This document shows, in pieces, positions 19,471-62,980 of a DNA stretch of 64,000 nt (position 1 is its first letter; every line of letters starts with the position of its first letter). The position numbers and the translations under genes were made by a program. The DNA comes from Acidimicrobium ferrooxidans (lineage in GTDB: Bacteria; Actinomycetota; Geothermincolia; Fen-727; Anoxymicrobiaceae), in the NCBI GenBank assembly GCA_020723485.1, contig DYIU01000002.1, positions 529,543 through 593,542 on the forward strand, given 5' to 3'. The notes beneath the pieces were generated by a model. The model searched no databases. It saw only the letters and a list, made by a program, of their open reading frames with translations, and was not told the DNA's origin.

Positions 19471-20013
19471 CTACCTGATGACCTCGTAGGCCTGGAGCGC
19501 CTTCTTCACCTGCAGGGCGACGGCCTTGCTGGTTATCGTGGCCCCGGTGACGGCCTGCACGTCCTCGCCCACCTCCAGGGGGTCCTTTGAAGTCTTACCC
19601 TCGAACCTGGCCAGGTTGTCCTCTTCCAGCACCTTGCTCCCCAGGCCCATGGTCTCCCTGTTCGAGATGACGGACACCCCGACCACCTCTCCGTCTTTGT
19701 TAATGCCTACGGCCAGCATGAGCGGGCCGCCGTAGCCTTTCGTGTTGATCTTGAATATGTAACCCTTGTCCGATGTGAACACCTTTTCGACCCCCGGGAC
19801 CTCCTTTGCCGCCTTCCTGGCGAGGTCCCGCTCTTCTTCGAGCTCACTGATGGAGTTGACCCCCGGTAGTGCAGCAACGGCCGCCTTGGCCTCCACCTCG
19901 CGGTCGTAGGCCTCGATCTTGTCGCGCGTCACCGAGTACGTGAGGCCGAGTCCGACGGCCGCCACCAGGCCCACCACCATGAGTGTCGTTCCCATTTTGA
20001 GTACCTGCTTCAT
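19471..20013 (-). CDS. rnfG: Rnf complex flavin-binding subunit RnfG
   Basis: The 180-residue protein has an N-terminal membrane helix and an FMN-binding domain with the motif AVTGATITSKAV, in which the threonine of SGAT-type sites receives a covalent FMN from ApbE. GLGSKV before it is also typical. An apbE gene lies divergently at the other end of the operon. It overlaps rnfD by ATGA. Confidence 0.94.
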   Translation of the reverse strand: MKQVLKMGTTLMVVGLVAAVGLGLTYSVTRDKIEAYDREVEAKAAVAALPGVNSISELEEERDLARKAAKEVPGVEKVFTSDKGYIFKINTKGYGGPLMLAVGINKDGEVVGVSVISNRETMGLGSKVLEEDNLARFEGKTSKDPLEVGEDVQAVTGATITSKAVALQVKKALQAYEVIR

Positions 20014-21113
20014 GCGGCCTCACCCGCCTGTTCTGCCTCCGCGGCCGCCTGGGCGCGGCGCATAGCCCTCACCCCGTACGGCACCGGCTTTACGTAGCGG
20101 TCGATGAGCGGGGTGAACCCGTTCATGAGGAGGATGGCGAACATCACGCCCTCCGGGAGGTTCGAGTAGAAGCGCAGCACCGTTGTGACGATGCCGCACC
20201 CGACCGCGAATATGACCTTTCCCCAGGCGGTCATCGGGTTGGTCACGTAATCGGTCGCCATGAAACACGCCCCGAAGAGCAGCCCGCCGGCCAGCGCCGC
20301 GAACAGCGGGTCCATGCCCAGTATCCACGAGAGGACCACCACCGTACCTACGTAGCAGACCGGTATCCTCCAGTCCACCAGCCCCTTGTACAGCAGGATG
20401 GCGAGGCCGACCAGGATAAGGACGGCCGATACCTCGCCTATGCATCCCCAGGGATTGCCCACCAGGAGCGGGCCGTAATAACGGGACGCGGCGACGGTCA
20501 GCTCGTCCTTTCGCACCAGCCCCTGGGCGGCCAGGGGCGTGGCGGTGGTTATCGCGTTTATGCTCTTTATGCTCTGGCTGGCGAAGACAGGCGCCTTCGG
20601 AGAAAACAGGTAGGAGGTCGTCATGTACTTGGAGTACGAGACGAAAAGGACAGCGCGGCCCACCAGCGCCGGGTTGAAGATGTTATGGCCCAGGCCACCG
20701 AACACCTGCTTTCCGAGGGCTATTGCCACTATGCCTCCGAGCAGCGGCATCCAGAAAGGCAGCTCGGGAGGAAGCGTGAGCCCCAGAAGCAGGCCGGTCA
20801 GCACGGCGGACAGGTCGTTCACGGTCACGGGCTCGTGCCTCAAGCGCTGGATGACGGCCTCGGTAGCGACAGCCCCCAGTATGCTCATCGCCACGACTAT
20901 CGCCGCCGAGACGCCGCCCATGTATATACCGTAGGCGGTTATCGGGAGCAGCGCCACTATCACCCAACCCATGATACCGGCAGTGGTGCTACTGTCGCGG
21001 ATGTGCGGCGAGACCCCTATGTTCAGGAGCCGGCTCTCCGCGCGGGCTTCATCCGGCTCTACACCGGCCTCCTGCTCTTTCTCGAGTTCGCTGTCAGGCT
21101 GTTTTTCCGGCAT
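20010..21113 (-). CDS. rnfD: Rnf complex membrane subunit RnfD
   Basis: The 367-residue protein has many membrane helices and the RnfD signatures LGKQVFGGLGHNIFNPALVGRA, the flavinylation site AITTATPLAA, and CFMATDYVTNPMT. It has long hydrophilic tails (EKQPDSELEKEQEAG at the start; AAAEAEQAGEAA at the end). It overlaps rnfC by 20 bp. A second, divergent RnfD is encoded at 60.4 kb. Confidence 0.95.
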   Translation of the reverse strand: MPEKQPDSELEKEQEAGVEPDEARAESRLLNIGVSPHIRDSSTTAGIMGWVIVALLPITAYGIYMGGVSAAIVVAMSILGAVATEAVIQRLRHEPVTVNDLSAVLTGLLLGLTLPPELPFWMPLLGGIVAIALGKQVFGGLGHNIFNPALVGRAVLFVSYSKYMTTSYLFSPKAPVFASQSIKSINAITTATPLAAQGLVRKDELTVAASRYYGPLLVGNPWGCIGEVSAVLILVGLAILLYKGLVDWRIPVCYVGTVVVLSWILGMDPLFAALAGGLLFGACFMATDYVTNPMTAWGKVIFAVGCGIVTTVLRFYSNLPEGVMFAILLMNGFTPLIDRYVKPVPYGVRAMRRAQAAAEAEQAGEAA

Positions 21114-22500
21114 TCTCTTTCTCTTCGGCCTCTTCGGACGCTTTCTCCGCGAGCGCTTCCATCTTCCGCTTCCTGCGGTTAAAGCCCTCTTTGCCGACCT
21201 TTATGAGCTGTACCAGGGGGTTCTTCGTCGGGCAGATGTAAGCGCAGCTGCCGCACTCCATGCAGTCGTTTATGTAGAGGTCCTCCAGATGGTCCCACAT
21301 CCCGGCGTCCGAGTAGGAACCCAGCAGGTAAGGCCTCAGGTTCATCGGGCAGCGCCTCACGCACCGGCCGCACCTTATGCAGGAGAAGTGCCCCGGCTCC
21401 TCGCAGAAGACGCTCCCCTTCTTGAAAACCAGTATCCCGCCGGTGGCCTTCGTGACCGGGACGTCCATCGTGTACTGGGCGAGCCCCATCATCGGGCCCC
21501 CCAGTATCACCTTTCCGGGGTCCCCCGAAAGCCCTCCGCAGAAATCTATTACCTCCCGGACCACGGTGCCTATGCGGACTTCGAGGTTCGCGCGCCCGGC
21601 GACCCCGTCGCCGGCCACAGTCACTATCCTCCTCGTCAGCGGCATCCCGGTCAGGAAGAGCTCGCTAATCGCGGCGCACGTGCCGACGTTGTCGACGATG
21701 GCCCCTACGTCCATGGGGAGCCCTCCGCTCGGCACCTCGCGCCCCAGCACGGTCTTGACGAGGGTCTTCTCCGCGCCCTGGGGGTAGATGCCCGGAAGTA
21801 TGAAGACCTCGATGCCGTCGTCCGGCACAGCCTCCCGCATGGCCGCGATAGCCTTCGGCCCGGTCTGCTCGATGGCTATGATTATCCGCTCCGCCCCGAC
21901 CGCCCTGCGGATTATCCTGGCCCCGTGGATGATGTCCTGGCCGCGCTCCAGCATCAGTCGGTAGTCGCCGGTCAGGAACGGCTCGCACTCCGCCCCGTTG
22001 ACGATCACCGCCTCGATGGGCCTGTCGGACGGAGGGCTAAGCTTCACGTGCGTTGGGAAGACGGCTCCGCCGAGCCCCACGATGCCACCTTCGCGCACTC
22101 TCCTCCGTATCTCACCGGGCTCCATGCTCAGGGGGTCGGGAGCGGGGCCCAGCCCGGGTGCGGGGGCGTCTTCCCCGTCCGAGCTTATCTCGACCGTCAG
22201 GACGTCTCGGCCAGATGGGTGCGGGAACCTCTGTATCGAGGTGACCTCGCCGGATACGCTGGAGTGCACCGGGGCCGAGATGTAGGAGTCCGAATCGCCG
22301 ATCTTCTGTCCGAGCAGCACCCTGTCGCCCTTTTCCACGAGCGGCTCGCAGGCGGCTCCGACGTGCTGCGAGAGGGGTATCAGAACCCGCTTCGGTTTCG
22401 GCCCGTCAGATATCTTGACGCCGGCCGCCAGCTTGCTGGCGGGTGGGTGCACTCCCCCTTTTACGAGGAGCGAGCGTTTGAGGTTATCAGCCCATCCCAT
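21094..22500 (-). CDS. rnfC: Rnf complex subunit RnfC
   Basis: The protein starts MGWADNLKRSLLVKGGVHPP and contains the RnfC NAD/FMN-binding region (GEIRRRVREGGIVGLGGAVFPTHVKL, VNGAECEPFLTGDYRLM) and two [4Fe-4S] motifs, CIRCGRCVRRCP and CMECGSCAYICP. It is the NADH-contacting subunit. The upstream ORF extension to 22569 is not supported. It is the first gene of the operon and diverges from apbE across a 100-bp gap. Confidence 0.95.
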   Translation of the reverse strand: MGWADNLKRSLLVKGGVHPPASKLAAGVKISDGPKPKRVLIPLSQHVGAACEPLVEKGDRVLLGQKIGDSDSYISAPVHSSVSGEVTSIQRFPHPSGRDVLTVEISSDGEDAPAPGLGPAPDPLSMEPGEIRRRVREGGIVGLGGAVFPTHVKLSPPSDRPIEAVIVNGAECEPFLTGDYRLMLERGQDIIHGARIIRRAVGAERIIIAIEQTGPKAIAAMREAVPDDGIEVFILPGIYPQGAEKTLVKTVLGREVPSGGLPMDVGAIVDNVGTCAAISELFLTGMPLTRRIVTVAGDGVAGRANLEVRIGTVVREVIDFCGGLSGDPGKVILGGPMMGLAQYTMDVPVTKATGGILVFKKGSVFCEEPGHFSCIRCGRCVRRCPMNLRPYLLGSYSDAGMWDHLEDLYINDCMECGSCAYICPTKNPLVQLIKVGKEGFNRRKRKMEALAEKASEEAEEKENAGKTA

Positions 22501-22577
22501 AAAATAATTCCGTTCGAGGCTCCAGGGCCCAACAGACCAGAAGTGCCCGCAGTCGGGTGCCGCGGGCAAACTGCGAG

Positions 22578-22601: not shown

Positions 22602-23663
22602 ATGAAACAAAAGAAACTACTGAATATCCTCATCGTGACAGTGCTCGCCGCCGGGACCGTGGTCCTGGTGGTGTTTCTGTCGAGCCGCGGGGGCGGTGGC
22701 TCGGAGCCGAAAGGCACCTACCATTCTCCGACGGTCTTCGCGATGGACACCACGCTGGACATCACCATACAGGGCCGCAGTTCCGGGCAGGCGCAGGCGG
22801 ACGCCGACGCCGCAATAGCGCTCGCGCGCGAAATCGAGGCGCGCACGAGCAGGTTCAAGCCGGAGAGCGACATCGCGCTCGTCAACGCCGGCGCCGGCGT
22901 CGCGCCAGTGAGAGTGAGCGAGGACACGTTGTACCTCGTCGGCAAATCCATAGAGTTCGGCCAGGCGATGGGCGGCGGATTCGACATCACCGTGGCCCCG
23001 GTTGTCTCGCTGTGGGGATTCTACGACGAGCGGTACCGGGTCCCGTCGCAAGCTGAGATAGAAGCCGCGCTGGCCCTGGTAGGCCAGACAAAGGTGGTCA
23101 TCGACCGGGCCGCGGGCACCGTCTACCTGCCGTTGAAGGGCATGGAGCTCGACCTCGGAGGCGTGGCAAAGGGGTACGCGGTGCAGAAGATGTACGAGCT
23201 GCTCGAGAGCCGCGGGGTGAAGAGCGCGCTGATCAACTTCGGTGGTTCGGTAGGGGCGCTGGGCAGGCGGTCGGACGGCAAGAAATGGGTGATCGGCGTA
23301 AAGCACCCCAGGGCCGGCGGCGGCGCGCTGGTCGGCGAGCTGGGGGTCGAGAACATGTTCGTGAACACCTCCGGCGACTACGAGCGCTACTTCGAGCAGG
23401 AGGGCAAGCGGTATTTCCACATCTTCGACCCCGCCACCGGCCGTCAGCCGGAGGGCACCATGAGCGTGACCGTGGTGGGCCCCGACGCGATGGTGGCCGA
23501 CATCCTCTCGAAGGCCCCGTTCGTGATGGGTATCCAGAACGGGCTCAAGTTCATAGAGAGCCGGCCTGGTTTCGAGGCCCTCGCCATCGACTCGACAGGA
23601 AACACGGCCTATACGCCGAACATGAAGAGCGAGTATGTCATCACGATGACGGAGAATATCTGA
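22602..23663 (+). CDS. apbE: FAD:protein FMN transferase ApbE
   Basis: The 353-residue protein has an N-terminal membrane anchor (ILIVTVLAAGTVVLVVF) and the ApbE fold: MDTTLDITIQG, GGGFDITVAPVVSLWGF, LDLGGVAKGYAV, NFGGSVGALG and HIFDPATGRQP. It attaches FMN covalently to threonines of RnfG and RnfD outside the cytoplasmic membrane. It is divergent from the rnf operon, which holds its substrates, and shares a TGATG stop/start with the next gene. Confidence 0.95.
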   Translation: MKQKKLLNILIVTVLAAGTVVLVVFLSSRGGGGSEPKGTYHSPTVFAMDTTLDITIQGRSSGQAQADADAAIALAREIEARTSRFKPESDIALVNAGAGVAPVRVSEDTLYLVGKSIEFGQAMGGGFDITVAPVVSLWGFYDERYRVPSQAEIEAALALVGQTKVVIDRAAGTVYLPLKGMELDLGGVAKGYAVQKMYELLESRGVKSALINFGGSVGALGRRSDGKKWVIGVKHPRAGGGALVGELGVENMFVNTSGDYERYFEQEGKRYFHIFDPATGRQPEGTMSVTVVGPDAMVADILSKAPFVMGIQNGLKFIESRPGFEALAIDSTGNTAYTPNMKSEYVITMTENI

Positions 23664-43503: not shown

Positions 43504-44604
43504 TCAGGGGCTGTTGAGAAACTCGACGATGCCGTTGCGCAGTCCCCAGGCCACCTTCCACCGGAACTGCTCATCCGAGAGCAGGCTGTCGTCCCTGGGA
43601 TTAGTGAGAAAGCCTATCTCGGCCTCGACGACGGGCACCTTCGACCAGTTGAATCCCGGCATGTCGTGACGGTCGAGCGCTCCAAGGTCGTCTGTCGCGC
43701 ATGACTTTGTGAGCTGCTCCTGTATGAGCAGCGCGGCGGTCTTGCTCTTCTCGTAGAACTCCCCCGTCCACCTGTCCCGCGCCGGGTACAGGGTCTCGAT
43801 GCCCATCATCGCCGGGTCGGAGGAGTTGCCGCAGTGTATGCGCAGGTAAAGGTCCGACTCCGCGTTGGCCGCGATCTCCGCGCGCATCACTTCGGGCAGG
43901 TCGATCGTGCTCGTCTCCCTGGTCATGACCACGTTTATGCCGTCCTTCTCGAGCAGGCTCTTGAGCTTCAGCGCCGTGTCGAGAGTGACCAGGTATTCGT
44001 CGTTGCCCGTCAGGACCCCCCTGGCCCCGCTGTCCCCCGGGAGCCGCCTGGTCATGCCGGGGTCGGCCCACTCCTCCCGGGAGGGCAGCGCCTGGCTGCC
44101 CGGGTCGATGGTTATCGTCCGGTCCGAGAAGGGGCCGGTCCCGGCCTGCTCGCCTCCCGGCTGTGAGGAGGCAGCCTGCCCGGGGGCCGGCCCGGTGTCC
44201 GTCTCCGGCCCCTTGCTCACGGTCAGCTTTATCCCGCTTCCCTTGCCCTCGACCTTTCCGGCGCCGGGGCTCTGGGCCAGTACAACGCCGTCCGAATGCT
44301 CGCTCGAAAAAGCCCACCCGGTGACCGTAGGGACGAAGCCGCTGTCCCGCGCGGACTCGAACGCCTCGGTCAGGGTCTTTCCGATGAGGTCCGGGACCTT
44401 CAACCCGGACGGCGGCCAGAGGAGGATGACCGCGAGGATAACAGCGCCGAGGGCCAGCAGGGCGGCCACGGCGATGAGCGCCGGCTTCCAGTTGAACGGT
44501 TCCCGGCGCGCGATGAGGGGGGCCGCGGGCTTGAAGTCCGCCAGCTCCTCGGGTTCCAGATCGAAGAAACCTCGCTCGTCAGTCCCCGGCATATCCGCAC
44601 TCAA
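43504..44604 (-). CDS. Membrane-anchored PASTA/N-acetylmuramoyl-L-alanine amidase (Amidase_3-like)
   Basis: The 366-residue protein has one membrane helix (PALIAVAALLALGAVILAVILLW), one PASTA domain (VPDLIGKTLTEAFESARDSGFVPTV) and an Amidase_3 domain. The first zinc-ligand motif, normally DPGHGG, reads IDPGSQA, losing the histidine; the second His motif RIHCGN and the catalytic Glu region VEAEIGFLTN are present. It may be inactive or use an altered metal site. PASTA domains bind peptidoglycan, so it works in the wall. It overlaps the adenine deaminase stop by four bases. Confidence 0.85.
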   Translation of the reverse strand: MSADMPGTDERGFFDLEPEELADFKPAAPLIARREPFNWKPALIAVAALLALGAVILAVILLWPPSGLKVPDLIGKTLTEAFESARDSGFVPTVTGWAFSSEHSDGVVLAQSPGAGKVEGKGSGIKLTVSKGPETDTGPAPGQAASSQPGGEQAGTGPFSDRTITIDPGSQALPSREEWADPGMTRRLPGDSGARGVLTGNDEYLVTLDTALKLKSLLEKDGINVVMTRETSTIDLPEVMRAEIAANAESDLYLRIHCGNSSDPAMMGIETLYPARDRWTGEFYEKSKTAALLIQEQLTKSCATDDLGALDRHDMPGFNWSKVPVVEAEIGFLTNPRDDSLLSDEQFRWKVAWGLRNGIVEFLNSP

Positions 44605-46307
44605 TCCGCGAACACGCTGACGAAATCGAACTTGCCTACGTCAACCAGACCCCGGTCCGTCAGCTTCAGTTCCGGTATGACTGGAAGCGCCAGGAAGCTC
44701 ATGGTCATGAAGGGGTCCTCGAGGACGCACCCGAGCTCTGAGGCGGCGCTGTTCAGCGCCTCGACCCGCGAGGCCGCCTCTCCGACCGGCAGCCGCGACA
44801 TGAGCCCGGCTATCGGGAGCGGGAGCTCCGCCTTTATCCCGCCTCCCGCCGCTACGGCCTGTCCGCCCTGCATCTGTATCACCCGCTCCACCGCGGCGAC
44901 CATGTCGGAGTCCGCCGCCCCGACCACGACTATGTTGTGTGAGTCGTGGGCGACGCTTGACGCCAGGGCGCCGGCCTGGAGCCCGAATCCGCGTACGAAA
45001 GCCACCCCGACGTTCCCGGTCCCCCTGTGGCGCTCGACGACCGCTATCTTCAAGAGGTCGACCGAGGGATCCGCCACCGCCTTCCCACCGTCCACAACCA
45101 CCTGCTCGGTCAGCGCGGCTGTCACTATCTGCTCCGGGACTATCCCGATCACCCGTACCCTCTCTCCGGCCGCCGCGACCTCTAGGCTGTTTGCGCTGAA
45201 GCCTTCCACTCTAAAGCTGGAGCCGGCCTCAGGCCCTTCTCCGGGCGGCTCCTTCAGCTCGCCTCCTTCAACCACGACCTCGCCATCCTTGACGACGATA
45301 AAAGCAGAGAACTCCTCGAGGTCGTCGAACGCCACCAGGTCCGCTCTGTACCCGACCCCGACAGCTCCACGGTCACGGAGCCTGAAGCGCGCGGCGGTGT
45401 TGAGCGTCGCCATCTGGATGGCGGTCATCGGGGAGACACCGGCCTTCACGAGCATCCTCAGCATGGAGTCGATGTGTCCCCGCTCCAGCAGGTCGCCGGG
45501 ATGCCTGTCGTCGATGCAGAGACAGCAGCGGCGGCTGTTGTCGGAGTTGGCCACGGGCAGCAGGTCCAGGAGGTTGCGCGCGCCCGTACCCTCTCTCATC
45601 AGGATGTACATCCCCTTCTGCAGCTTCTCCTCCGCCTCCTGCGCCGTGGTGCACTCGTGGTCGGAGTCCGGCCCGGCGGCGATGTAAGCGGCCAGGTCCC
45701 TGCCGCTCAGGCCGGGAGCGTGCCCGTCCACCGGCATGTCCTTGAAGAGCTCCAGCTTGGCAAGTACGTCGGGCGCACCGGCCACCGTTCCCGGGAAGTT
45801 CATGAGCTCGCCCAGCCCTATCACTCCCGGCTCGACCATGAGCGGCGCCAGGTCCCCCGCCTCGAGAGACGCCCCTGAGGTCTCGAGCGGCGTGGCGGGT
45901 ACGCATGACGGGAGCATGACGAACACGTCCATCGGGGCCTCTTCAGCCGAACGCATGATGTACCGGATACCCTCGACGCCCATGACGTTGGCTATCTCGT
46001 GGCAGTCGGTGACCACGCTGGTGGTGCCCCGGGGGACCACCGCTCGAGCGAACTGCCCCACCGTTACCATCGAGCTCTCGAGGTGCACGTGGGCGTCGAT
46101 GAGCCCGGGGGCCAGGTAGCGTCCCCCGAGGTCGATGGTGCGCTTTGCCGTGTAACCCCCGTCGAGGCCGACCACGACGCCTCCTGACACCGCCACCGAG
46201 GCGGGGTGCACCCTTCCCGACAGCACGTCGACCAGCAGGCAGTTGACCAGGAGGAGGTCCACTTCGCCCTCTCCCCTGGCGGCCTTTATCCTCTCACCGA
46301 GTTCCAT
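44601..46307 (-). CDS. ade: Adenine deaminase Ade
   Basis: The 568-residue amidohydrolase has the Ade metal motif GLIDAHVHLESSMV, VPRGTTSVVTDCHEIANVMG, DGHAPGLSG, CTTAQEAEEKL, and CIDDRHPGDLLERGHID. The C-terminal half (VVVGAADSDM, ALNSAASELGCVLEDPFMTMSFLALPVIPELKLTD) is Ade-specific. It converts adenine to hypoxanthine. The start at 46307 (MELGERIKAARG) has GGGGGTGAGC; the ORF-track extension to 46376 translates a REP-like repeat. Confidence 0.95.
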   Translation of the reverse strand: MELGERIKAARGEGEVDLLLVNCLLVDVLSGRVHPASVAVSGGVVVGLDGGYTAKRTIDLGGRYLAPGLIDAHVHLESSMVTVGQFARAVVPRGTTSVVTDCHEIANVMGVEGIRYIMRSAEEAPMDVFVMLPSCVPATPLETSGASLEAGDLAPLMVEPGVIGLGELMNFPGTVAGAPDVLAKLELFKDMPVDGHAPGLSGRDLAAYIAAGPDSDHECTTAQEAEEKLQKGMYILMREGTGARNLLDLLPVANSDNSRRCCLCIDDRHPGDLLERGHIDSMLRMLVKAGVSPMTAIQMATLNTAARFRLRDRGAVGVGYRADLVAFDDLEEFSAFIVVKDGEVVVEGGELKEPPGEGPEAGSSFRVEGFSANSLEVAAAGERVRVIGIVPEQIVTAALTEQVVVDGGKAVADPSVDLLKIAVVERHRGTGNVGVAFVRGFGLQAGALASSVAHDSHNIVVVGAADSDMVAAVERVIQMQGGQAVAAGGGIKAELPLPIAGLMSRLPVGEAASRVEALNSAASELGCVLEDPFMTMSFLALPVIPELKLTDRGLVDVGKFDFVSVFAD

Positions 46308-46317
46308 GCTCACCCCC

Positions 46318-46393
46318 GGGGTCTGACCACATCTTTGTCGTTGCTCCGTCCAGACAAGTTTAACGCTATCATGCAAAGATGGGGTCTGACCCC
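46318..46393. repeat. REP-like inverted pair (locus 3)
   Basis: GGGGTCTGACCACATCTTTG (46318-46337) and the inverted GGGGTCAGACCCCATCTTTG (46374-46393) form two arms with two mismatches, 36 nt apart. They lie between the ade start and the hydrogenase-like large subunit stop. The arms share the head of the repeats at 1.2, 32.3 and 60.35 kb. Confidence 0.8.
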
Positions 46394-46409: not shown

Positions 46410-47477
46410 CTACAGGTCGATGCACGCCGCGCAAAGGCACAGCGTGACCACCTCCGGCACGATGTCCTCGTAACGCGCCCCGGTGAGCGCCCGCGGCGTC
46501 GCGTCCGCGACAGCGCAGACCGCGCGGCTCACGCGGTTCCTGATTATCCTTCCCTCCGCCCCCAGGAAGACGGCGTGCTCGATTGCGCCGTCCGGGGATT
46601 CACATATCCCGATCCCTTTTCCCTTCCCGTATTCGACATCCTGGAAGACCCCGGGGTTCACTCCCTCGGCGTCACTTATCTTCCGTATCAAGCTCGCGGA
46701 CGCTCTGGCCTCGTCGAGCAGGAGCAGCGACCGGTCCAGCGCCGTTCCCCCTTCCCTTGTCACGGGCCTGTAGTAGGACCCGCGGTAGAAGCCGTAGGCA
46801 TCCTCGCCGGACCTCGCGTCACGGGATAACCCGGCGGCCCGGAAGGCCGGCGCCGGGGGAGCTTCTTCGGCCTGTGAGACACCGGCAAGGGCTGCCCCAC
46901 GCAGCCGCCCCCGGGAGAGCTTCAGCCTTGCGCCCCAGTACGAGCAGTCGCGCGCGAGCGTCTTCAGGGTGGAGGCGAGCTCCCGGAGCGGCCGCCCGTC
47001 CCCACTCATCGCCGCCCCTCCAGGCACTACCATCCCGAACCCGAACGGGCTGCCGGAAGCCTTCCCGAACGCTTCCCTGATCTCCGCGATGAAGCGGCGT
47101 GGTCCTTTGTATAGAACATCGTCACGGAGCGCCCTTCCGACGTCGGAGATCACCTCGAGGTGGGATGCGACGCGCTCGTACTCGGCAGCGACCGCCCTGA
47201 ACACCTCCGCCGCGTCGTCGACCTGGATACCCAGGGCTTCCTCCAGGGCCTGGCAGTACGCGAGAGAATGGGAGATGGTCGAGCGCGCGCAGATGCGTCC
47301 GGCCACCTCGAGCCCCTCCAGCGGTGTCAGCCCCTCGAACATGAGCTCCAGGCCCCTGGCGCCGAGGCCGGTCTCGATACGCGCAGCGCTCACCCGGGGG
47401 CCATCGAGCTCGAATTCGAGGGCGAGCGGCTGGCGCAACGCGGCATCGAACGGTCCGAGCGGCAGCCTACCTTTCAC
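46410..47477 (-). CDS. Complex I/[NiFe]-hydrogenase large-subunit-like protein (Ehr-like)
   Basis: The 355-residue protein resembles NuoD/EchE large subunits: GLTPLEGLEVAGRICARSTISHSLAYCQALEEALG, RVASHLEVISDVGRAL, and C-terminal LCLCAACIDL. In true [NiFe] enzymes the first motif is RxCGxCxxxH; here it is RICARSTISH, so one cysteine is lost (Ser), while CAAC near the C-terminus keeps two. An intact NiFe site is therefore unlikely. It is the last of a four-gene module and lacks a fused NuoC part. The start overlaps the preceding gene. Confidence 0.8.
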   Translation of the reverse strand: MKGRLPLGPFDAALRQPLALEFELDGPRVSAARIETGLGARGLELMFEGLTPLEGLEVAGRICARSTISHSLAYCQALEEALGIQVDDAAEVFRAVAAEYERVASHLEVISDVGRALRDDVLYKGPRRFIAEIREAFGKASGSPFGFGMVVPGGAAMSGDGRPLRELASTLKTLARDCSYWGARLKLSRGRLRGAALAGVSQAEEAPPAPAFRAAGLSRDARSGEDAYGFYRGSYYRPVTREGGTALDRSLLLLDEARASASLIRKISDAEGVNPGVFQDVEYGKGKGIGICESPDGAIEHAVFLGAEGRIIRNRVSRAVCAVADATPRALTGARYEDIVPEVVTLCLCAACIDL

Positions 47478-49207
47478 CGGCCCCGCCCCCCGACTCGCTG
47501 GCGGACGGCACCCGGGATGGGAACGGCGGAGTAACCAGAGGACCGGAAGTCGCCCCGCGCCCCGGCCATGAACGGCTCGAAGCGGCTCGCGGGGCCCTCT
47601 GAGGGGCGGACGGCTCTACTGGCCAGGTACACCGAGACGACTATGACGGCGGTCGCAACCAGGAACGCGGCCGCGTCAGCGGACCACCCCGTGTAGTACA
47701 CGAACGCCTTCCCGACAGGCGCGCCGGTGCCCCTTATCGCGACACCCGGGCCCGTGAACCCTGCGGAATAAAGGAGCCGCGAGCCGCCCGGGATGAAATT
47801 GTCCCAAAGCAGGTGCGGGAACAGCCCGAGGAGCAGGGAACCCGCACACAGACCGACCGCGGCGAATCCCTCCACGGGCGACTGCCTGTTCACCGGGACG
47901 ACCCGGGGCCCGGCGGGAGCAAAGACCCCTCCGACCGTCCTCCCCAGCGCGACGGCAGCCGCCGCGACCGCCGCGAGTGAGAGTCCGGCGGCCAGTGCGC
48001 CCACCGGGGCGGCAGACGCGGCGTCGATGTCGGCCAGCCAGGCGGCCGCCTTGCTCACGAAACCGTCCAGCGGGGGCAGGCCGGCGAGGGCCATCCCGGA
48101 GAGGAGGAGGCCTACGCAGGCCGCGGGGGCCAGCCTCGCGGAGATGCCCTGCCTGTTGAGCTCGCCGGTCCCGCGCAGGGTCTCGAGGGTCCCGGCGCAC
48201 ATGACCGTTGCCGCCAGCGAAAGCGGTATCACCAGGAGCGTGAACAGGCAGCACTCGAGGCCCGCCCTCGAGAAGAGCCCCAGGGAGGTCACCAGGAAGC
48301 CGGCCTGCATGGTGTACATGCCCGTGACATAGTCGCGGACCGTGGGACGCGCGAGCGCGATGAGCGGCCCGGCGGCAATGGACACCATTCCCACGACTGT
48401 GATGGCGAGGCTCCAGTCGGAGGCGACCAGCCTACCTGTGAAGACCGCCGCGGCCACCATCCGGAGCCCCCCGAACAGGAAGCTCGCCGCGCCCAGGAAG
48501 AAAGCGTTCCAATCGGGCGGCGCTGCGCTCAGCATCTCGCGTATCCATCCGTGAAGCGGGAAAGCTCCGAGCCTCACCAGGGCGCCGGCAAGGAACAGTG
48601 CGGCCACAGCTACGGTCTGGGCCTCGCTCCCCTTCGTGAGCGGAGGCGTGATGAAGACCGCCGTCTCGTCGAGCAGTACCCAGCACAGCAATGCCCCGGC
48701 GGCCAGCAGGCAGTCCGAGGCCAGCCACGGGAGGAACGCCCGAGCCTTCCTCCTGAAACGCGCCGGGCCCGAGGCCGCCAGCGCGGCCAGTGCAGAGGCG
48801 CTCACGCCCTCCCAGAGGCATACCTGCAGGATTACCCCCCTCGAAAGAAACGCGAGGCACGCGAAGCCTGCGCCTGCGAGGACACAGGCAGGCACCAGCG
48901 AACCGCCGGTCTCACCGCCTTTCCTGAAACCGGCGTACAGCACCGCCGCGGCCGTCACAAGATTGAACATCAGGAACACGGGGAAAGTGAAAGCGTTCAG
49001 CCTGAACGGGCCCCATCCCGGCGCGGCCCGGAGTTCCAGGTACCCGTTTAGCAGAGCGAGCGAAAGGCCCGCGGCCGCCACCGAGTAGGTCGCGGCAAGT
49101 ATCCTGCGCAGGCGCGCCGCGCGCGAAGCGGCAGCCACAACCAGCGCGAACCCGAACGGCATGACAAGGGATATCTTCAGTATGGTGCCCATATCACCCT
49201 GCGACAC
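47474..49207 (-). CDS. NuoL/HyfB-like proton-translocating membrane subunit
   Basis: The 577-residue protein has about 14 membrane helices with antiporter-family features: the LCLWEGVSASALAAL region, a key lysine/histidine stretch FPLHGWIREMLSAAPPDW, and GLPPLDGFVSKAAAW. It fits the NuoL/M/N-HyfB-EchA group that pumps ions in complex I and membrane hydrogenases. It is the only pump subunit of this cluster. The ends overlap its neighbours on both sides. Confidence 0.82.
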   Translation of the reverse strand: MSQGDMGTILKISLVMPFGFALVVAAASRAARLRRILAATYSVAAAGLSLALLNGYLELRAAPGWGPFRLNAFTFPVFLMFNLVTAAAVLYAGFRKGGETGGSLVPACVLAGAGFACLAFLSRGVILQVCLWEGVSASALAALAASGPARFRRKARAFLPWLASDCLLAAGALLCWVLLDETAVFITPPLTKGSEAQTVAVAALFLAGALVRLGAFPLHGWIREMLSAAPPDWNAFFLGAASFLFGGLRMVAAAVFTGRLVASDWSLAITVVGMVSIAAGPLIALARPTVRDYVTGMYTMQAGFLVTSLGLFSRAGLECCLFTLLVIPLSLAATVMCAGTLETLRGTGELNRQGISARLAPAACVGLLLSGMALAGLPPLDGFVSKAAAWLADIDAASAAPVGALAAGLSLAAVAAAAVALGRTVGGVFAPAGPRVVPVNRQSPVEGFAAVGLCAGSLLLGLFPHLLWDNFIPGGSRLLYSAGFTGPGVAIRGTGAPVGKAFVYYTGWSADAAAFLVATAVIVVSVYLASRAVRPSEGPASRFEPFMAGARGDFRSSGYSAVPIPGAVRQRVGGRGR

Positions 49208-49595
49208 GGCGCACCGCCTCCCTCAATGCTGCCGGGTCGATGGGGCACCCGGCCAGCGGCACCGCGCGCGCCGGACCGGCCGGCGCCTCGCGCCCGGTGC
49301 TCCCCCGCCCGCCGAAGATCCCTTCTCCGAGCGCGCAGTCCCCGACCAGTATCACCCGGCACGACCCGGGGGCCTGGGAGATAACGTGCAGCGCCGGGCC
49401 GGTCAGCCCGGGCGTCCACAATCCCGTGACGACGATGACCGAGGCGTGGCGCGGGGACGAGCATTCCGCCAGGGGGCCCGGCCGCCACCCATCTCGAAGG
49501 ACGGAGTCCACCGCGTCAGCACACCCCGAGCACCCGCCCATCCTGATGTGGAACACGTCGGCGCGCCTTCTCCAGAGGACAGCGAGGGGATTCAA
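49194..49595 (-). CDS. NuoB/EchC-like small [4Fe-4S] subunit
   Basis: The 133-residue protein shows the four cysteines of the proximal cluster: GGCSGCADAV (residues about 21-28), GDCALGEGIFGG (about 86-97) and LAGCPIDP (about 114-121). It would pass electrons to the large subunit site. It is short but complete for this family. The pattern CxxC...GxC...GCP matches hydrogenase small subunits and NuoB. It overlaps its neighbours in the module. Confidence 0.82.
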   Translation of the reverse strand: MNPLAVLWRRRADVFHIRMGGCSGCADAVDSVLRDGWRPGPLAECSSPRHASVIVVTGLWTPGLTGPALHVISQAPGSCRVILVGDCALGEGIFGGRGSTGREAPAGPARAVPLAGCPIDPAALREAVRRVAG

Positions 49596-50530
49596 GACGC
49601 GCTCCCGATCCAGACCAGTATGAGTCCGGCGACCGCCAGGACGCCTCCGGCGCCCAGTGCCAGCGCCAGCGCCCGCGGCGAACCGAGCTCCGGTGAGACA
49701 ATATCGACCAACCCCATCAGCAGGGTGATACCTGCAACCTTCATCACCCAGAACGCCACCTCGGCGACGGTCGAGGCGGGGCCGGCGAAGAAGAGGGCCG
49801 CGAGCAGCAGTGCCGCCGTGAACAGGGAAGCGGCATCCGACAGGCGAAGCATCGCCAGCGGCGGGCCGGACATATCCGCTGTTATCCCCCCAGGCGGGTC
49901 ATCAAAAAGCCCGGGCGAGAGCGGCCGCAGGCGCGCGATGCCGAGCGCCGCCAGCGCGGCCGCGGCAAGGCTGAGCGCGACACCAACCTCAGTGAGCACC
50001 CCTGTCGATGTCGGCGCGATAAGTATGCCGTTTGAGCTCTGCCACCCCATGACCCCGGCGAAGCTAACCTGCCCGGTCCTCAGGGCGACGGTCGCAAGCA
50101 CAAGGGCAAGCGGAATTCCCCAGCCGGCTGACCGGGCGCATTCAGCGAAGCAGCTCTGCCTGACCCTCGGGTTCGAAGAGCAGGAAGCTACGAGAACATC
50201 GGCCGCGGAAGAAATCGCGAGCAGCGCGAACACGAGGGCGAGGTCGCCGCCCCGGTAGCCGAAGATGATGCATGTCACCCAGGACAGGGCCGCGAGCTTC
50301 ACGACGGGAGCGATCCACTGGACCGCTCGCAGCGCCCCGTCCGCCGCAACGCTCTCGTCCGCAAACAGTCGAAGCAGGCCAGGCATGCCGCTTCCCGGTC
50401 CTTCGGAAGAGGCGCCCGTCACCACCGAGGACATGCCGCCCAGGATCGCCCGCGCAACAAGCCCGGTCAGCGCGATAAAAAGGAGGCCCGGGAAGAGGAC
50501 CAGGTTAGCGAGCTTCCCGACAAACGCCAT
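49592..50530 (-). CDS. NuoH/HycD-like membrane anchor subunit
   Basis: The 312-residue protein has about eight membrane helices and motifs of the NuoH/EchB family at their usual positions: FPGLLFIALTGLVARAI at the N-terminus, SSAADVLVASCSSNPRVRQ, and VDIVSPELGSPRALAL. It anchors the peripheral arm. It is the first gene of the four-gene H-B-L-D module. The ATG at 50530 (MAFVGKLANLVL) has AGGAGG 6 nt upstream; the longer ORF start is not supported. Confidence 0.78.
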   Translation of the reverse strand: MAFVGKLANLVLFPGLLFIALTGLVARAILGGMSSVVTGASSEGPGSGMPGLLRLFADESVAADGALRAVQWIAPVVKLAALSWVTCIIFGYRGGDLALVFALLAISSAADVLVASCSSNPRVRQSCFAECARSAGWGIPLALVLATVALRTGQVSFAGVMGWQSSNGILIAPTSTGVLTEVGVALSLAAAALAALGIARLRPLSPGLFDDPPGGITADMSGPPLAMLRLSDAASLFTAALLLAALFFAGPASTVAEVAFWVMKVAGITLLMGLVDIVSPELGSPRALALALGAGGVLAVAGLILVWIGSAS

Positions 50531-50821
50531 CGACCGCCTCCTAAAAGAGAATGCCCTCAAAAGATTTCAGGGTCCGTTCCGGACGAGCCGACCCGTTTTC
50601 CTTAAGACCTCTTGAGGGCTAGTTGAATCTATTAAATTACCGCGCCTCAGTCAAGTGCAATCGGCTTTATTTCGCCGTTAACGCACATTTCCAGAAGCGT
50701 CCGGCGTGGTCGCGCCAAATTGCCTGATAACTTTCAAAGTATTATGATTCCAAAAGGCCGTCGCCGAATCGCAATCTCCGGCGGCCTGCCGGTAGGGTCG
50801 CGGGCTCGACAGGGGGCGGAC

Positions 50822-60446: not shown

Positions 60447-61589
60447 CTACTCGGTCTGCCGGGAGCTTCCCGTCACCGGCGGGATCCTGTTGAAGAGCGG
60501 CTTCTTGACAGCGCCGAATCTCGCCCTGGCGGTGTAACGATCGATGGCTACTGTGAGCACGTTCCAGGTGAGTATGGATATCGCGACGCCCTCCGGCCAA
60601 GGCGTGTGCAGCCTGACGAGCCCTATGCAGACGCCTATCCCGACCGCATAAATCCACTTTCCGCGCCTGGTGACAGGACTGGTCACCCAGTCGGTCGCCA
60701 TGTAGAAAGCGCCTAGAAAGAGCCCGCCGGCGAGCATCTGGTACAGCGGCTGTTCCCACTCCACGACGAATAACAGCAGTGCCCCACCAAGCACCCCGAC
60801 CGGAATCCGCCAGTCTATCGTCCGGCGGTATATCAGGTAGAGCCCCCCCAGCAGAAGGAGCAGGACAGAGACCTCACCGATGCTGCCCGACCTGAGACCC
60901 AGGAACAGCGAGTGGTGACCCGGTGCGCCCGTGGACGTGAGCCAGGTCGCCCCAACAGGAGTAGCCCCCGTGGTCGTGTCAACCACAATCCTGCCGTTTT
61001 GGATCAGGGACAGAGGGGTTGCATGCGATACAGCGTCCAGGGGGGTGCCGGCGATGGTCTTGTAGACTATGCGCTGTCCGCCCTCGTTCTCGATGAACGC
61101 CTGTATCGGGGTGAAAAAACCGATTCCCCGCCACCAGAACGGCTTTACGAACTTCGTGGTGTAGATGAACAGCGGGGATATCATAATCGCTATCCTGCCA
61201 AAAAGGGCCGGATTGAATATGTTCTTTCCAAGGCCCCCGAACAGCTCCTTGCCCACGGCTACCGCGATGAAGGAGCCTATAGCCACCACCCACAGGGGAG
61301 TGGCTACCGGCAGGAGGAAAGCCAGGAGCAGGCCAGTAAGAACAGCGCTCAGGTCATGCAGCGTCGCCTTCCTGCCGAGAATCCACCTCATCACGAGCTC
61401 CGTGAGCATCGCCGTCGCTACGCTAACGACCATCACCACGAACGCCTGAAACCCGAAGACTATGACCGCCCATACTGCCGCTGGCATCAGGGCGATGAGC
61501 ACGTCCAGCATCGCGCGCTCGATCGTCTGGCCCCTCTCGTGCAGGTGGGGCGAGACCGCCGAATCGTCCCATTTGCCGACTGTGGGCAT
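60447..61589 (-). CDS. Second RnfD-like subunit (orphan pair)
   Basis: The protein starts MPTVGKWDDSAVSPHLHERGQTIERAMLD and has the RnfD/NqrB features: LGKELFGGLGKNIFNPALFGRI, AVSHATPLSL (flavin site with Thr) and GAFYMATDWVTSPVT. It is homologous to the RnfD at 20 kb but clearly divergent. Only RnfC is adjacent; G, E, A and B are absent. The ORF-track start at 61817 is inside rnfC. The two genes overlap or abut, so they are co-transcribed. Confidence 0.88.
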   Translation of the reverse strand: MPTVGKWDDSAVSPHLHERGQTIERAMLDVLIALMPAAVWAVIVFGFQAFVVMVVSVATAMLTELVMRWILGRKATLHDLSAVLTGLLLAFLLPVATPLWVVAIGSFIAVAVGKELFGGLGKNIFNPALFGRIAIMISPLFIYTTKFVKPFWWRGIGFFTPIQAFIENEGGQRIVYKTIAGTPLDAVSHATPLSLIQNGRIVVDTTTGATPVGATWLTSTGAPGHHSLFLGLRSGSIGEVSVLLLLLGGLYLIYRRTIDWRIPVGVLGGALLLFVVEWEQPLYQMLAGGLFLGAFYMATDWVTSPVTRRGKWIYAVGIGVCIGLVRLHTPWPEGVAISILTWNVLTVAIDRYTARARFGAVKKPLFNRIPPVTGSSRQTE

Positions 61590-61597
61590 GTCCCTCG

Positions 61598-62980
61598 TCA
61601 CTCCCTCGTCCTCGCAAGGGCGGCTTTTGCCGAGCGTACGTACCTGACGTGCGGGATGAATGCCGGGCATGTGTACGAACAGCACCCGCACTCGAAGCAG
61701 TCCAGCGCCCCCCACATCTGAGCCTTGGGCCATTCCTCTTCCTGGACCGCATCGACGATGAAATTGGGCAGGAGGAACATCGGGCAGGCGTCCACGCACT
61801 TTCCACACCGCACGCACGCCCGCTCTTCCCGCTCATACTCAGGCAATAGCGGGAGCGCGATTATACCTGACATCCCTTTCACAAGCGGTGATTGCGCCGA
61901 GCCCTGAGCCCAGCCGGTCATGGGCCCGCCGGCAATGACCCTCGCCGGTTCGGCCGCAAGCCCTCCGGCGACCCCGAGAAGAAACCCGAGGGGAGACCCG
62001 AGCCTCGCAAGGTAATTGCCCGGCCTCGCCACGAGGGGCCCAGTTATCGTGACCACCCTCTCGTAGAGTGGCTTGCCGGTAGCCGCAGCCTCGTATAGCG
62101 CGACGGCCGTGCCCGCGTTCTGAACCAGGCAACCGACTTCGGACGGGAGCTTGCCTGGAGGAACGTCCCTCCCGGTGAGGACGTGTATCAGCTGCTTCTC
62201 GGAGCCCTGCGGGAACTTAACATCGAGTGCTGCAGCATGGACCTCGGCACATGAAGAAGCCGCGGCCCTGACGCTCTCCACCGCGTCCATCTTGTCGGCC
62301 TCGATGCCTATGATGCCCCGTCGGGCGTCCACAGCGCGCATGAACAACCTCAGGCCTCCGACCAGCTCCGGTGCGCGCTCCAGCATAAGGCGGTGGTCGC
62401 ACGTCAGGTACGGCTCACATTCGCACCCGTTCACTATCACGGTATCGATCGCCTTGTCTGCAGGCGGTGTCAGCTTCACGTGCGTAGGGAACGCGGCTCC
62501 CCCCATCCCGACCAGTCCTGCTTCCCGGGCCACCACGCGTACTCGCTCGGCGGTCAGCCCGCCGGGGCGTTCCCGTGGCGATGCTTCCCGTCCTGGCTGC
62601 TCTGAGTCCACGGCTATCACGACGCACAGGGCAGACTTTCCCCTGAAGTCGGGCACGTCAGCCACGGCTTCAACCGTCCCCGCGGCAGGGGCATGAACCG
62701 GGGCCGCTATGAATGCCCCGGAATCGCCTATGACCTGTCCTAGTTCCACGTGCTCGCCCGGGGTTACTACTGCTTCGTTTGGAGCGCCGATGTGCTGGGT
62801 AAGCGGTACTGACAGGACCGGCGGCAGGGGCGCCCGGAGCACTGCCTTCGACGAGGTCTCAGCCTTGTTTCGTCCGGGATGTACCCCGCCCTTGAAAGTC
62901 CTCGTGCGTCTGATGCTCAAACCCGGTTCCTCGAAGTGTCTCTCATCGCTGATTGATTCCGGTTCCTCGTCCTCGCCCAC
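61598..62980 (-). CDS. Second RnfC-like subunit (orphan pair)
   Basis: The 460-residue protein has the RnfC NAD/FMN part (REAGLVGMGGAAFPTHVKLTPP, VNGCECEPYLTCDHRLM) and two cluster motifs CVRCGKCVDACP and CFECGCCSYTCP. It differs from the RnfC at 21 kb in its acidic N-terminus (GEDEEPESISDERHFEEPG). It is followed 8 bp later by the second rnfD. Its role may be in a distinct flavin/NAD electron transfer unit. Confidence 0.88.
   Translation of the reverse strand: MGEDEEPESISDERHFEEPGLSIRRTRTFKGGVHPGRNKAETSSKAVLRAPLPPVLSVPLTQHIGAPNEAVVTPGEHVELGQVIGDSGAFIAAPVHAPAAGTVEAVADVPDFRGKSALCVVIAVDSEQPGREASPRERPGGLTAERVRVVAREAGLVGMGGAAFPTHVKLTPPADKAIDTVIVNGCECEPYLTCDHRLMLERAPELVGGLRLFMRAVDARRGIIGIEADKMDAVESVRAAASSCAEVHAAALDVKFPQGSEKQLIHVLTGRDVPPGKLPSEVGCLVQNAGTAVALYEAAATGKPLYERVVTITGPLVARPGNYLARLGSPLGFLLGVAGGLAAEPARVIAGGPMTGWAQGSAQSPLVKGMSGIIALPLLPEYEREERACVRCGKCVDACPMFLLPNFIVDAVQEEEWPKAQMWGALDCFECGCCSYTCPAFIPHVRYVRSAKAALARTRE

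Follow-up and report, generated by a model that had tools for sequence, protein, structure and literature searches.

The stretch of DNA analysed here, 64,000 nucleotides long and hereafter called the window, comes from the 3.36 Mb, 95% complete Acidimicrobium ferrooxidans assembly G000 (C5:529543-593542), and carries on its minus strand, from 50530 to 46410, four genes in the order 5'-H-S-A-L-3', which encode relatives of the membrane, small, antiporter-like and large subunits of complex I and of the group 4 [NiFe] hydrogenases. We read this operon, HSAL, as encoding a minimal energy-converting complex that is specific to its lineage, belongs to the complex I/group 4 superfamily and neither makes nor consumes H2, and, taken together with the working proposed below, this reading has in our estimate a little less than an even chance of being right. 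Judged by the predicted metal ligands and by the maturation genes, HSAL is not a hydrogenase. It is probably a redox-driven ion-translocating complex resembling Ehr (energy-converting hydrogenase related) complexes, with a substrate that is neither protons nor quinone, because the parts that handle H2 have been lost although three metal-binding cysteines have been kept.

The large subunit, L, carries most of the argument. When the eight L proteins of the family were aligned to MbhL of the Pyrococcus furiosus membrane-bound hydrogenase (MBH), with residue roles taken from PMC11228991, all eight were found to keep Cys68, Cys374 and Cys377 of MbhL and to have Ala for Gly69 and Ser for Cys71, and the equivalent of His75 is retained in 7/8. 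L has eight cysteines and only three are invariant, exactly those at hydrogenase ligand positions 1, 3 and 4. The sequence-only reading of this DNA had described an incomplete nickel site on the strength of RICARSTISH standing in place of RxCGxCxxxH; the motif is correct, and the second ligand is indeed a serine throughout, but the C-terminal CLCAACIDL had been overlooked, in which C349 and C352 align with the second CxxC, so that three of the four ligands (C63, C349 and C352) persist. As the window protein stops three residues past this CxxC, it has no maturation peptide. The residues Glu21, Arg320 and Asp372, which in Mbh serve proton transfer and H2 activation (PMC11228991), have gone: Glu21 is replaced by Gln or Thr (one truncated sequence does not cover the site), Arg320 by Asp, Glu, Thr or His, and Asp372 is variable. 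The GPxHP loop of NuoD reads GPFD in L, and the predicted structure of L has a predicted local distance difference test (pLDDT) score below 50 at its C-terminus.

The maturation system points the same way. The genome content of G000 was examined family by family, and HypD and HypF are absent from the whole assemblies of G000, G001 (99% complete) and G005 (82%), all of which carry HSAL; this goes beyond the earlier observation, itself borne out, that no maturation genes lie nearby, and means that the NiFe(CN)2CO site cannot be assembled. HypD and HypF occur together in six other genomes of the same GTDB family, one of which, G004, has Hyp genes and no HSAL; together with the carriers G000, G001 and G005, this uncouples HSAL from Hyp. 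No [FeFe] hydrogenase was found in any of the nine family genomes. The ligands, the outer-sphere residues and the absence of Hyp genes together led us to reject a group 4 hydrogenase.

The operon is present in 8/9 genomes of the family, with 40-58% identity between L proteins, and purifying selection acts on all four genes, with ratios of non-synonymous to synonymous substitution (dN/dS) of 0.19-0.27 for H, A and L and 0.26 for S. Chance or a sequencing artefact is ruled out by this conservation in eight genomes together with dN/dS. Across carriers the surroundings are syntenic, with a helicase, a 3D-domain protein, HEAT, YkuD and GGDEF genes, then H-S-A-L, ade and an amidase. A profile search of 297 genomes of the phylum fell from E values of 1e-155 within the family to 1e-44 for the next best match, with nothing between, and a one-pattern scan of all GTDB species returned six loci only, all in Actinomycetota metagenome-assembled genomes of this family. 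The named records with HSAL are likewise all uncultured Actinomycetota metagenome-assembled genomes, and HSAL is likely to be rare outside its family.

That NuoH-, NuoB-, NuoL- and NuoD-like proteins overlap in one operon, as first read from the sequence, is confirmed by the coordinates (overlaps of 4, 14 and 4 nucleotides) and by Pfam matches, which are weak yet above the curated cut-offs; the NCBIfam equivalog cut-offs are far from reached. H starts at the ATG at 50530, where relatives begin with the same M-[AT]FV.KLA, the mechanical open reading frame being longer, to 50560. The best solved profile match is MBH for both redox subunits, MbhJ (6cfw_J, 6.8e-19) for S and MbhL (6cfw_L, 1.1e-35) for L. 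L is the sole PF00346 gene in G000, which has no second NuoD-like gene and therefore no ordinary complex I.

The four cluster cysteines already recognised in the small subunit, C22, C25, C87 and C117, are all invariant. S was compared in seven genomes, G007 being left out because the frame of its S gene is odd around CxxC; this gene (L018:7720-8349) probably contains an assembly indel. A further cysteine, C45, in the PSST loop (EC-x-[ST]-P-R), occupies a position that is Val in MbhJ and has no cysteine in NuoB or HyfI either. It lies four residues before Arg49, which is invariant and equivalent to MbhJ Arg64, a residue that pairs with MbhM Glu216 (PMC11228991). On the membrane side, H retains a D/E-x-[ST]-G remnant of the NuoH loop, and the Lys of transmembrane helix 12 is kept in 7/8 A proteins.

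Phylogenetic placement was assessed with a large-subunit tree of 37 rows with group 3 outgroups, in which the family L proteins form a clade of their own (100/100) with a long stem, apart from the rows for Ehr-type, HyfG, MBH, Ech-like and NuoD proteins. In approximately unbiased (AU) tests, joining this clade with HyfG was rejected (0.013) and with Ech-like proteins was borderline (0.045), while joining it with Ehr-type (0.16), NuoD (0.133) or MBH (0.106) was not rejected. The L clade is deep, and its placement calls for caution given the long stem. The proposal that HSAL resembles Ehr complexes is well supported as far as an Ehr-like non-hydrogenase is meant, given the ligand, outer-sphere and Hyp losses described above, while membership of the Ehr clade is no more than possible; no affiliation with a clade having a complete four-cysteine site was found, though kinship with MBH is possible.

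Table 1. Features of the window discussed in the text (window coordinates; residue numbers refer to the window proteins)
Feature	Position	Strand	Evidence
H, NuoH/EchB/MbhM-like membrane subunit, 312 aa	49592..50530	-	Pfam PF00146 (NADHdh) 5.8e-9
S, NuoB/EchC/MbhJ-like small subunit, 133 aa, CxxC...C...GCP	49194..49595	-	Pfam PF01058 (Oxidored_q6) 8.6e-8
A, NuoL/MrpD/EchA-like antiporter-like subunit, 577 aa	47474..49207	-	Pfam PF00361 (Proton_antipo_M) 5.7e-12
L, NuoD/EchE/MbhL-like large subunit, 355 aa	46410..47477	-	Pfam PF00346 (Complex1_49kDa) 1.5e-8 and PF00374 (NiFeSe_Hases) 1.8e-8
L1-equivalent RICARSTISH, L 61-70, Cys1 kept, Cys2 replaced by Ser	47268..47297	-	C63, A64, S66 invariant 8/8
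L2-equivalent CAAC, L 349-352, Cys3 and Cys4 kept, preceding DP lost, no cleavable tail	46422..46433	-	C349, C352 invariant 8/8
S C22-x-x-C25, cluster ligands with MBH spacing	49521..49532	-	invariant columns, MbhJ alignment
S C45, extra cysteine in PSST loop	49461..49463	-	invariant 7/7
S C87, cluster ligand	49335-49337	-	invariant
S C117, cluster ligand	49245-49247	-	invariant
ade, adenine deaminase, next gene 3' of L	44601..46306	-	NCBIfam TIGR01178 4.2e-176
Leader RNA, 67 nt, long closing stem with covariation, then T-rich stretch	50553..50619	-	covariance model
Sigma-70-like promoter TTGACT-17-TAGATT	50626..50654	-	consensus scan
Rnf-type locus (RnfC, RnfD, FMN-binding)	19471-22569
ApbE	22602-23663
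Rnf-type locus (RnfC/RnfD)	60447-62980

HSAL may work like Ehr or a minimal Ech, and we infer the donor, the direction, the substrate, the metal of the pocket and ion transport itself as follows. Electrons would come from a diffusible carrier of low potential, most simply the reduced ferredoxin on which the Rnf complexes of the genome also draw, and would enter directly at the single [4Fe-4S] cluster held by S. From there they would pass to a substrate in what was once the hydrogenase pocket of L and is now a putative three-cysteine/serine site. The resulting conformational change would reach H and A through the contact between S Arg49 and the acidic loop of H, and A, the only antiporter-like subunit, would move H+ or Na+.

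Several observations weigh against this reading. The module has no ferredoxin-like (NuoI/EchF/MbhN) and no NuoC/EchD-like subunit, which leaves electron entry unexplained. The ion path of A is altered, the Lys of transmembrane helix 7 being Arg in all proteins, the Glu of helix 5 missing in some and the His/Lys of helix 8 lost. Conserved cysteines need not be catalytic, since the membrane-bound sulfane sulphur reductase (MBS) of P. furiosus is active without the two cysteines left over from its nickel site (PMC7684303). HSAL is absent from the family member G004 and has diverged more than the neighbouring ade and YkuD genes. Homologues of H and A alone (profile E values down to 3e-35 and 1e-128) fill the position flanked by YkuD and ade in f2 and f3, two families of the same order. 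Because G004 has lost HSAL and these sister families retain H-A without a redox subunit, the membrane part may have a redox-independent job.

The two-gene H-A loci (L108:5283-7943, L110:12257-14981 and L111:1-2405) are of interest in themselves. S is absent from the f2 and f3 genomes examined and there is no L at the locus, and in their H proteins the loop expected to meet S and L is eroded. H-A can be regarded as a complex I-like module reduced to its membrane part, loss of S and L being a simpler reading than gain. Neither HSAL nor H-A is found in G004 or G299.

Among the alternatives, the one that survives best, though we consider it unlikely, is that C63, C349 and C352 of L, with Ser66 or S Cys45 as fourth ligand, make the pocket a mononuclear Zn, Fe or Ni site with a structural or redox role, so that the complex would relay or sense redox state and gate the H-A ion path without reducing a substrate. 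The restriction of invariance to ligands 1, 3 and 4 among the L cysteines, the retention of thiolates while H2-chemistry residues were lost, and the location of invariant S Cys45 in a loop whose MBH counterpart faces L and H all fit such a site. The models are, however, weak where it matters (mean pLDDT of 62.8 for S, besides the poorly modelled L C-terminus), and Cys45, being so near the coupling Arg, aligns closer to the membrane interface than to the nickel site.

Less likely again is a relic, in which the redox function is fading, S and L are being lost, and H and A form a simple ion channel or exchanger. The H-A loci of f2 and f3, the empty genomes G004 and G299 and the divergence of HSAL beyond its neighbours would all follow from this, but dN/dS is about 0.2 in all four genes, the cysteines of S and L are invariant across eight genera, and the window copies contain no frameshift.

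That HSAL is a sulphur or polysulphide reductase like MBS seems improbable. MBS too has lost part of its nickel cysteines, keeping C85 and C385 (PMC7684303), and the predicted L model finds its best fold match in the MBS L subunit (6u8y_L); on profiles, however, L is closer to MBH (127 bits) than to MBS (69 bits). MBS depends on a proximal cluster with only three Cys ligands, in a loop three residues shorter than that of MBH, opening the cluster for polysulphide (PMC7684303), and MBS-like catalysis is unlikely in HSAL because the S loop keeps the MBH CxxC spacing, with four ligands. Least credible of all, and very improbable, is a true [NiFe] hydrogenase with a serine ligand whose Hyp maturation proteins are imported or missed by the assembly, for although MBH is the nearest solved relative, kinship with it survives the AU test and His75 is mostly kept, Cys2 is Ser in 8/8, Glu21, Arg320 and Asp372 are lost, HypD and HypF are missing from three carriers, one of them 99% complete, and the window L offers no C-terminal peptide to a maturation protease.

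HSAL is embedded in the context of an adenine deaminase gene, ade, which lies directly 3' of L in 8/8 carriers and probably shares its transcript. Upstream of H, a sigma-70-like promoter, with a near-identical TTGAC...TAATAGATTC in relatives, is followed immediately by a leader RNA, of which the covariance model finds one match per genome in all nine family genomes and in G299. The leader precedes HSAL-ade where HSAL exists (in G002 the contig breaks after it) and directly precedes ade in G004 and G299, which lack HSAL; it is therefore probably part of the ade transcript, within which HSAL lies where it is present. A link to purine metabolism is possible. The compensatory changes in the leader stem come nearly all from G299, in an alignment of 12 rows of which two are antisense copies. 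There is no Rfam match to the leader in the window at E<=5 and only a chance-level match in L121, and nothing on it was found in the literature searched; it is a candidate riboswitch or other cis-regulator in this Actinomycetota order. Further leader copies lie at L107:2855-2922 and L109:6130-6195. Between L and ade, two copies of GGTCAGACCCC lie within an inverted repeat (window 46318-46391; 0.11 expected), and the window holds no others.

Other redox loci of the genome include the two Rnf-type loci and ApbE of Table 1. An RnfD/RnfC-like pair with a 4Fe-4S protein and a molybdopterin oxidoreductase occurs at L133:6675-12369 (G000 C5:599674-605368) and at L022:9600-15898, the latter read from translation starts only, and is a candidate Rnf-like membrane module coupled to a molybdoenzyme. 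Small and large subunits resembling group 3 [NiFe] hydrogenases, with complete Cys motifs, are encoded at L075:7481-11496 (G000 C5:432480-436495), with homologues in L076 and L077, and the same locus encodes a 2x[4Fe-4S] ferredoxin and roadblock proteins. As G000 and G001 lack HypD and HypF, their predicted group 3-like complex should lack its cofactor too.

What, then, might the retained thiolates of HSAL do? One suggestion, which we consider doubtful, is that a new type of metal or reactive site is built from the three thiolates together with Ser66 or S Cys45, in a pump of the complex I superfamily whose substrate chemistry involves neither H+, quinone nor polysulphide. Complex I is thought to have descended from four-cysteine hydrogenases by stepwise loss of nickel ligands, with four in MBH, two in MBS and none in complex I (PMC7684303); a site of the new type, if real, would be a natural three-cysteine stage between these. 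A three-cysteine state with lost outer-sphere residues was not found described in the literature searched. The four-subunit HSAL and the membrane-only H-A are also small enough to probe the least machinery needed for redox-driven ion pumping.

Compared with known systems, HSAL differs from the Mrp antiporters, which have seven membrane subunits and no redox subunits, in having S and L and lacking MrpB/C/E/F/G; a separate Mrp-type locus is present elsewhere in G000 (C11). With complex I it shares subunit families and coupling-loop residues, but NuoD lacks the nickel cysteines and has its own quinone-site residues, where L keeps C63, C349 and C352 and has GPFD. MBH and Ech have homologous H, S, A and L subunits and a four-cysteine proximal cluster, with MBH spacing, and three cysteines and mostly the His of the MbhL site persist in L; HSAL differs in the Cys71 to Ser change, the lost Glu21, Arg320 and Asp372, the missing Hyp genes of G000, G001 and G005, the lack of NuoI/EchF/MbhN and NuoC/EchD subunits, and its separate clade. 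MBS is similar in the partial loss of nickel cysteines by a complex I-superfamily enzyme, and, judging from the aligned end points alone, C385 of MbsL would correspond to Cys3; it has two cysteines, a site-differentiated cluster and two antiporter-like subunits, against three cysteines, a fully ligated cluster and one such subunit in HSAL. Ehr is defined as a group 4-like complex with an antiporter-like subunit and no intact NiFe site (PMC6349859), and HSAL matches it in its antiporter-like A and in the homology of its large and small subunits to those of group 4; at the metal site, one of four cysteines is lost in 8/8 and three are invariant. In the same phylum, 13 Ehr-type large subunits, which carry an N-terminal NuoC-like part, are free of cysteine at all four ligand positions, yet every one keeps Glu21 and most keep Arg320. 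L shows the reverse pattern, a stable three-cysteine state in which the residues handling protons and H2 were lost and the thiolates kept.

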